The position numbers and the translations under genes are program-made. A stretch of 64,000 nt of DNA, from NCBI RefSeq assembly GCF_030680395.1, contig NZ_JAUXVR010000027.1:1-64000 (forward strand). Direction: 5' to 3'. The notes below the pieces were generated by a model. It did no database searches and was not told where the DNA came from. It saw nothing but the letters and a program-made list of their open reading frames with translations. Positions 32,597 through 33,825 of the stretch are shown in pieces (the first letter of the stretch is position 1; the number at the start of each line of letters is the position of its first letter). The stretch is from Methylobacter sp. (GTDB lineage Bacteria; Pseudomonadota; Gammaproteobacteria; Methylococcales; Methylomonadaceae).

Positions 32597-32623
32597 CTGG
32601 CACTCGTCTTAATGGAGTGCTAA
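32597..32623 (+). promoter_or_regulatory. CIRCE operator (HrcA binding site)
   Basis: CTGGCACTC-N9-GAGTGCTAA. The right arm matches the CIRCE consensus 9/9 and the left arm 7/9 (consensus TTAGCACTC), with the exact 9-nt spacing. It lies between the promoter and the hrcA start, so the operon is most likely autorepressed by HrcA and derepressed on heat shock. Confidence 0.92.
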
Positions 32624-32643
32624 ATTTGGTTGCAGAGGTTGGT

Positions 32644-33825
32644 GTGAGTAATACGCAATTTTTAAATGAGCGGTCGTTGCAGTTATTGAAATCACTGGTC
32701 GAGCGCTATATCAGTGATGGCCAGCCGGTGGGTTCACGGGCTTTATCAAAAGATTCGGATTTAAACTTAAGTCCGGCAACTATTCGCAATGTCATGGCCG
32801 ACCTGGAAGACCTAGGTTTGGTGCATTCACCCCATACTTCGGCAGGAAGGGTGCCTACGGTCAGCGGCTACCGCTTGTTTGTCGATACCTTATTGACGGT
32901 TAAGCCAATGGAGTCGAAAGATTTAACCCGACTGCACCAAGGCTTGTCGTTGAGCGAGGACAGCAGCGATATGATCGGCGTCGCATCGCGCCTACTTTCA
33001 GAATTAACGCAGATGGCCGGGGTGGTGACCTTGCCTAAAAGAGAGCAGGTATGCTTGCGGCATATCGAGTTTCTATCTTTATCTCACACCCGCGTGTTAG
33101 TTATTTTTGTTACCAATGAGCAGGAAGTTCATAACAAAATCATCCATACCTCCAAAGTATTCAGTCCTGCCGAACTACAGCAGGCAGCCAACTATTTAAA
33201 TTCAATTTATTCCGGCCGCAGCCTTGATGCGGTGCGCAAAGCGGTTTTAAAAGAGTTGCAGGAAGACCAGGAACGCATGACAAATCTGTCTGGAACAGAT
33301 TTGCATTTACCCGAAGGGTGTCGGGCAGGAAAGCCCGGCATGACAAATCTGTCTGGAACAGATTTGCATTTACCCGAAGGGTGTCGGGCAGGAAAGCCCG
33401 GCATGAATCAGGGCATGCTGGATGCGGTAAAAATGGCGCAACTGGCGTTCGATCAGGACAATAAAAAAGATGATTATGTGCTGACCGGCGAAACCAATTT
33501 AATGGGTTTTTCCGAGTTGTCGGATATGGAGCGGCTAAAAAGCCTGTTTGAAGCGTTCAGTCAAAAGCAGGGCGTTATTCATTTGCTGGACCAATGTATG
33601 AAAGCCGACGGCGTGCAGATATTTATCGGCGAAGAATCGGGCTATCGGGCTTTCGATCATTGCAGTCTGGTGACCTCATCCTATTCGGTCAGCAACGAAG
33701 TGGTCGGGGTATTGGGCGTTATCGGGCCGACGCGTATGGCCTATGAGAAAATCATCCCTTTTGTCGATGTGACGGCAAAATTGTTGGGAGCCGCCTTGAA
33801 TCCAAAATCAACGACCCCACTATAA
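32644..33825 (+). CDS. hrcA: Heat-inducible transcription repressor HrcA with a 42-residue insertion
   Basis: Repressor of the chaperone operon, binding CIRCE. 393 aa from the GTG at 32644 (AGAGG about 10 nt upstream); a GTG at 32617 lies inside CIRCE and is rejected. N-terminal winged helix (RSLQLLKSLVERYI, SPATIRNVMADLEDLGL), a GAF-like middle and the conserved C-terminus (GVLGVIGPTRMAYEKIIPFVD). Residues 212-253 are two identical 21-residue copies (MTNLSGTDLHLPEGCRAGKPG) encoded by a perfect 63-bp tandem repeat. Without them the protein is 351 aa, the usual length, and QEDQERM joins NQGMLDAVKMA smoothly. The insertion keeps the frame, but its effect on activity is unknown. Confidence 0.93.
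   Translation: MSNTQFLNERSLQLLKSLVERYISDGQPVGSRALSKDSDLNLSPATIRNVMADLEDLGLVHSPHTSAGRVPTVSGYRLFVDTLLTVKPMESKDLTRLHQGLSLSEDSSDMIGVASRLLSELTQMAGVVTLPKREQVCLRHIEFLSLSHTRVLVIFVTNEQEVHNKIIHTSKVFSPAELQQAANYLNSIYSGRSLDAVRKAVLKELQEDQERMTNLSGTDLHLPEGCRAGKPGMTNLSGTDLHLPEGCRAGKPGMNQGMLDAVKMAQLAFDQDNKKDDYVLTGETNLMGFSELSDMERLKSLFEAFSQKQGVIHLLDQCMKADGVQIFIGEESGYRAFDHCSLVTSSYSVSNEVVGVLGVIGPTRMAYEKIIPFVDVTAKLLGAALNPKSTTPL
33277..33402 (+). repeat. Perfect 2 x 63-bp tandem palindromic repeat within hrcA
   Basis: Two identical 63-bp units (33277-33339 and 33340-33402). Each unit has two inverted repeats: CAAATCTGT-N5-ACAGATTTG (33281-33303 in unit 1) and CGGGC-N6-GCCCG (33322-33337). Each unit begins ATGA, and the host sequence after the second unit also begins ATGA, consistent with a short target duplication or slippage. 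63 is a multiple of 3 and no stop occurs in frame. Confidence 0.95.

Follow-up and report, generated by a model that had tools for sequence, protein, structure and literature searches.

In-frame tandem copies of a dispersed 63-nt palindromic unit in the heat-shock repressor gene hrcA of a Methylobacter genome

Coding palindromes are, by the title of a 2002 paper of Ogata, reportedly a unique feature of Rickettsia, whose elements of this kind are abbreviated RPEs. A passage of a 2024 review treats a similar process as conceivable in other prokaryotes (PMC10969869), and the account of GTAG/CGTC REPs in another paper includes intragenic REPs in other species (PMC3733652). We describe here an insert in the heat-shock repressor gene hrcA within the window (the whole 64,000-nt stretch of Methylobacter DNA that was analyzed). 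The insert is very probably a tandem pair of copies from a family with a 63-nt unit, one that is dispersed, non-autonomous and hairpin-forming and that occurs in Methylobacter and in some other Methylococcales; its original reading as a coding palindrome of the Rickettsia type finds support for the most part.

The host ORF (Table 1) matches the Pfam domains HrcA (E 1.9e-60) and HrcA_DNA-bdg (E 2.2e-6), may alternatively start at 32644, and is followed downstream by ORFs that, from their sequences, we take to be grpE-, dnaK-, dnaJ- and dapB-like; the putative operator that precedes hrcA was scored against the CIRCE consensus. Two identical 63-bp units lying in frame in hrcA at 33277–33402 had been predicted, and the sequence bears this out, with the ORF open throughout and with Tandem Repeats Finder reporting 33275–33406 at a period of 63 and 100% matches. 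ATGA is indeed the start of each unit so delimited and recurs directly after the insert. Two details of the prediction needed adjustment: the unit boundary that fits the empty sites lies 3 nt to the right of the one first given, and the insert comprises residues 221–262 in the 402-aa numbering, the earlier 212–253 fitting a start nine codons later. Since 63 nt equals 21 codons and the one open sense frame runs through the unit, an insertion after an xTG codon is predicted to add a peptide resembling TNLSGTDLHLPEGCRAGKPGM and to leave the frame unshifted.

Table 1. Features at the hrcA locus, in positions of the window.
Feature	Position	Strand	Basis
CIRCE-like operator (putative HrcA binding site), 2 mismatches vs consensus	32597..32623	+	Motif search
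hrcA, 402-aa ORF, heat-shock repressor, host gene	32617..33825	+	ORF open through both units; Pfam match
Element unit 1, ACAAAT...GGCATG, 63 nt, predicted peptide TNLSGTDLHLPEGCRAGKPGM	33280..33342	+	Sequence; boundary set by empty sites
Hairpin 1, unit 1: CAAATCTGT / 5-nt loop / ACAGATTTG	33281..33303	+	Predicted fold; covariation
Hairpin 2, unit 1: ACCC - GAA - GGGT	33309..33319	+	Predicted for the window's unit; not in family consensus fold
Hairpin 3, unit 1: CGGGC - AGGAAA - GCCCG	33322..33337	+	Predicted fold; strongest compensatory changes among copies
Element unit 2, same sequence as unit 1	33343..33405	+	Sequence; Tandem Repeats Finder
Right flank AATCAG, abuts GCATG in element-free relatives	33406..33411	+	hrcA alignment

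The insert occurs in hrcA of 13 of the 23 genomes of the genus and is missing from ten, in which the junction reads GCGCATG/AATCAG (the slash marking the insertion point). Copy number at this site varies between genomes from one to three units, as anticipated: eight genomes have one, G000 and G009 two and G021 three, whereas G002 keeps a 27-nt remnant and G008 has at least two units around a run of N (locus L069); among the bearers is the isolate M. tundripaludum SV96, with one unit in frame (L291). In other genera the insert was found in none of the 27 HrcA checked, of which seven, from fetched members of the family, are without it, and the 20 further ORFs all have an insert-free length of 341–363 aa, with the site continuous in the rows displayed (one in two). 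The inserted residues are therefore not common to all relatives, many of which have an HrcA without them, and the element is also found elsewhere in the genome. As for the doubling in the source genome, it is very unlikely to be an assembly artefact over a true single unit. Both units are identical, and the N run inside the G008 tandem marks a place where assemblers stumble, as such an artefact would lead one to expect; against this, the units of G009 and of G021 differ within their arrays, so that real tandems exist, and assemblers tend to collapse repeats, not to create them.

The prediction that the unit is a dispersed repeat was confirmed by a 141-nt query, which gave 17 matches at 16 places in the source genome (two matches overlap), a number that excludes chance. 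A single unit matches 24 of 41 genomes searched, namely 22 of the 23 of the genus (the source genome included) and 2 of 18 others. Among named genomes, an exact 21-mer is present in 102 stretches, mostly of Methylobacter, the other carriers being Methylomicrobium sp. wino1, Methylotuvimicrobium buryatense 5G, Methylovulum miyakonense and Crenothrix. The 21-mer was also seen in metagenome-assembled contigs labelled Nitrospirales, Verrucomicrobia and Moraxellaceae (L248, L286, L295), where binning error or chance is the likely cause. Phage and plasmid collections gave no match to the element (E 1e-5), and viral contigs no exact 21-mer. Near-identical units lie in unrelated genes and also between genes, on both strands, and these dispersed copies already refute the view that the hrcA insert is a repeat expansion of HrcA's own coding sequence and not foreign. 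To that view, which would suit the occurrence of one to three units within one gene, we assign practically no chance; the uninterrupted HrcA of ten genus genomes and of the members of other genera that were checked speaks against it as well.

The census of the family comprises the loci of the matches listed for the source genome and for the 41-genome search, plus seven (L191–L197) that a protein search found in frame or near it; 155 loci were entered, 154 of them with a match, the exception being the weakest source-genome match (L023). Among the matches listed, 150 of 185 units are 63 nt long (40 of 50 intragenic, 110 of 135 others), a count from which 5 of 190 matches were dropped, which includes nine units with no recognised end, and which is biased towards 63 by the choice of the end nearest to that length. 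The spacing of tandems is free of this bias: among the matches listed, all 20 steps within ORFs of at least 150 aa measure 63 nt, as do 8 of the 10 outside such ORFs, the remaining two measuring 64. Two or more units, arranged as head-to-tail tandems, occur in 21 of 160 clusters among the matches listed, and 73 of the 160 fall in ORFs of at least 150 aa, some of which are likely spurious (e.g., L018, L021 and L022).

Hosts with the element inside a Pfam-matched protein are HrcA, a presumed RsmD (PF03602), where the insert directly follows the DPPF motif, TilS, ComF, an M1 aminopeptidase, an ABC transporter, GDPD, a DUF4912 protein, a spermine-synthase-like membrane protein and a ribosome-binding-type GTPase, together with DsrC, which has it near the N-terminus. 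The protein that we take to be ComF matches the zinc ribbon above and the phosphoribosyltransferase below the Pfam cut-off, and has two sites, one per strand. In the source genome, 4 of 15 clusters lie well inside Pfam-matched genes (hrcA, tilS, rsmD and the ABC transporter). At 12 loci (L040, L108, L109, L132, L134, L164, L167, L168, L169, L179, L183 and L188) an antisense element codes for a C-terminal extension of a histidine kinase, likewise a Pfam-matched host; the 772-aa ORF of L157 had no Pfam match. In the rsmD of G021 (L192), two sense units in tandem are accompanied by an antisense unit at a separate place, and one open frame runs through all of them. Sense insertions are mostly read in one frame, with L020 and perhaps L083, L021 and L190 in another, and antisense ones in two more; the predicted 21-residue peptide is therefore much alike in unrelated hosts. 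Of the distinct units among the matches listed, 28 of 31 intragenic ones keep sense frame A open, compared with 44 of 98 others, an excess that is unusable as proof because intragenic copies were chosen for lying in open frames. Diversity by codon position gave no clear third-position signal (0.204, 0.131 and 0.165 in intragenic units vs 0.178, 0.142 and 0.172 elsewhere).

Empty counterparts of several sites define the ends of the element at nucleotide resolution. At comF, the search set of 18 genomes divides into 14 with an empty site, reading CACCTG/AAACAA, and 4 with a filled one, which in one case is shortened; the census adds G021 and G022 as filled. At rsmD, only G000 of the 18 is filled, with CGG as its left flank, and 17 are empty, reading CTG/AATC; G021 is again filled according to the census. 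The tilS region is highly variable, its stretch measuring at least 144 nt in 7 of 19 genomes and 78–114 nt in the rest. Three empty REPs of the source genome read ATTCCGGC-A-ATCCCTGCCGGAATGACG, and filled REPs hold the unit in that loop. A boundary of ACAAAT...RTG fits the empty and filled sites, with no target duplication in REPs beyond one shared A; in genes, a short TGA or ATGA duplication is indistinguishable from a seamless 63-nt insertion. Insertions lie mostly directly after TG and before A: among the matches listed, with orthologues counted, T occupies position −2 in 23 of 31 distinct intragenic left flanks vs 29 of 72 others, and G position −1 in 25 of 31 vs 35 of 72. The TG/A target is not universal. 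Intergenic copies were observed in loops of CGTC-type REPs (L014, L142, L158, L178 and others), and those of L081 and L160 in the loop of a palindrome of the GGGGCGAAT...ATTCGCCCC type, giving palindromes nested in palindromes. At four loci that we take to be hypA-like (L015, L194, L196 and L197), the 3′ end of the element, (C)CATGCATG, abuts the gene and appears to supply its ATG start.

When folded as DNA, the unit has a predicted energy of −16.9 kcal/mol, compared with −6.67 ± 2.01 in shuffled sequences (z −5.1; 0 of 200 equal or better). The palindromic nature of the unit, as originally described, is thereby upheld, whereas the number of inverted repeats given, two, is replaced by three hairpins in the predicted fold, the short one of which falls outside the family consensus fold. 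Among 127 distinct 63-mers from the matches listed, counted with relatedness uncorrected, covariation is seen in the stems of hairpins 1 and 3. At pair 44–57, A-T (71), G-C (39) and T-A (6) make 116 paired units, compared with 80 expected from independent columns, and pairs 43–58, 40–61 and 10–16 are formed in 115, 122 and 126 units vs 89, 93 and 105 expected in the same way; near-invariant pairs (e.g., 4–22, 9–17 and 45–56) show no excess over expectation. When the count was made on a gapped alignment, only hairpin 1 emerged. Two Rfam matches far under the gathering score (PhotoRC-I, 14 bits vs 45) were taken as chance.

With regard to the route of spread, the copies would have been distributed by a trans-acting enzyme, perhaps one acting on the folded single strand, and unit number would shift by slippage or by unequal recombination between the direct repeats. 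Seamless joining and hairpins would fit a HUH (Y1) transposase working on single strands, a route that we propose with low confidence. Y1_Tnp genes are present in all eight genomes searched (66 matches). Of the 30 Y1_Tnp loci retrieved together with some 1.5 kb of sequence to either side, one has a copy of the element nearby, and none could be singled out as the mobilising enzyme. The original prediction of a palindrome that enters genes in frame, as RPEs do, holds, with dispersed copies and with hrcA, rsmD and comF both empty and filled; the mobility predicted with it is putative. A more specific proposal would make the family a CGTC-type REP moved by a RAYT-like Y1 transposase, and would place it truly within the group to which RPE-4 and RPE-6 of Rickettsia belong. 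The Y1_Tnp genes in every genome searched, the apparently seamless insertion, the presence of CGTC in stem 3 of the family consensus and the intergenic copies inside CGTC-type REPs would all agree with this. Nevertheless we regard it as unlikely: CGTC is absent from the hrcA unit, the stems have no initial AT and there is no CCA tail, unlike the CGTC families as far as their description in one source goes (PMC3733652), and a copy was near only one of the 30 Y1_Tnp loci fetched (of 66 matches).

The distribution of the insert at hrcA is patchy. On a tree of 30 hrcA rows, six changes are required to account for the 13 bearers (shuffled mean 10.0, with 4 of 500 as low), and well-supported branches force no fewer than three of them, and G009, with two units, is sister to G012, with none (support 97/93); this is not expected from a single insertion with plain descent. 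For the first unit in 11 genomes (55 non-independent pairs; G002 and G008 dropped), dS is 0.18 and dN 0.10, compared with 0.84 and 0.04 in the flanks, giving a dN/dS of 0.55 vs 0.05, and amino-acid constraint on the insert is weak. First units of G000, G003, G007, G009, G013, G019 and G021 differ by 0–2 of 63 positions; in G003, G009 and G019 they share a single sequence, which copies at other loci have too. The copies in the window are identical, as first reported, but the recent doubling read from this is no more than one option, given that first units can match perfectly between species as well. The mean difference between first units is 3.4 in nine genomes (G005 and G020 left out) vs 6.6–11.3 in 63-nt flank windows, and 7.0 in all 11 vs 8.6 and 12.1 in the adjoining 63-nt flanks. 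At other loci, intergenic ones included, 13 of 16 orthologous groups have lower divergence in the unit than in either flank, with one tie and two exceptions; these groups were located through their resemblance to the unit, a procedure biased towards conserved copies. Low divergence of the insert, once considered as proof of repeated insertion at hrcA, is weakened by this common tendency; it may reflect renewal or gene conversion, re-insertion, or constraint at the DNA level.

The small differences among the seven first units and the nine-genome mean would also be expected if the insert had been co-opted, its peptide or mRNA hairpins tuning HrcA activity or expression of the hrcA operon and being kept by selection. 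This is quite improbable in view of the weak amino-acid constraint, of the insert-free hrcA of ten genus genomes, of the narrower gap between unit and flanks when all 11 genomes are compared, and of the similar tendency at other loci. Moreover, the hrcA copies of G005, G020 and G015 have diverged, indicating that the peptide is not strictly required, and G002 keeps only its remnant. A different possibility, somewhat less likely than not, is that in different Methylobacter lineages one and the same junction between codons of hrcA, and maybe also one of comF, has been repeatedly renewed: a site-preferring 63-nt element would re-enter or be re-copied in frame, be tolerated as 21 codons, decay when unrenewed (G005, G020, G015 and G002) and at times be cleanly lost (G012 beside G009). 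If true, repeated renewal at hrcA would mean that free-living bacteria have an active system by which peptides are inserted in parallel and without danger to the frame.

Selection would purge insertions that are out of frame or bear stops. HrcA itself probably works with the insert, given that both of its Pfam domains match in all 29 HrcA proteins scanned and that each of the seven genomes searched, whether or not it bears the insert, has CIRCE-like sites (three each in the source genome and four others, two in G007 and four in G018). The protein may accommodate the peptide as a loop, a weak structural reading, as both AlphaFold models are poor (mean pLDDT 44.2 and 50.9) with the insert residues among the least confident; the PDB search returned one sequence, 1STZ, aligned to profile position 193, short of the insert. 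We regard the insert as a selfish insertion that is tolerated; the change in heat-shock control suggested originally would be hypothetical.

The family may be compared with described systems; searches of open-licence PMC papers, mostly at the level of listings, turned up no account of it. It resembles MITEs in being small, dispersed and without a gene of its own, but differs in that its ends are not mutual inverted repeats, the left end ACAAATCTGT not matching the reverse complement of the right end CATGCCGGGC and the predicted hairpins being local. Its REP sites have no duplication other than the shared A, whereas in genes a short one may be hidden. With intragenic GTAG/CGTC REPs, as portrayed in one account, it shares short palindromic repeats, complementary changes in stems and a location of some copies inside ORFs, where those REPs code for 20–82 residues (PMC3733652), and some REP dimers likewise sit within larger palindromes (PMC3733652). 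In contrast, neither GTAG nor CGTC stands as a terminal tag beside a stem of the window's unit, which is also longer than REPs, and its family forms head-to-tail tandems, whereas head-tail GTAG dimers are given there as absent or rare in most genomes (PMC3733652). The likeness to RPEs is one of kind, drawn from descriptions: dispersed palindromes lying in frame in unrelated genes and also between genes. RPEs are, by the review passage, about 150 bp (PMC10969869), compared with 63 nt here, and the present element further differs in its tandem in-frame arrays and in its hosts, free-living gammaproteobacterial methanotrophs. For such a lineage there are isolate genomes and several sites known both empty and filled, resolved to the nucleotide, and the length of the unit makes frame conservation automatic. 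The way in which working proteins gain peptides from a selfish repeat thereby becomes testable.
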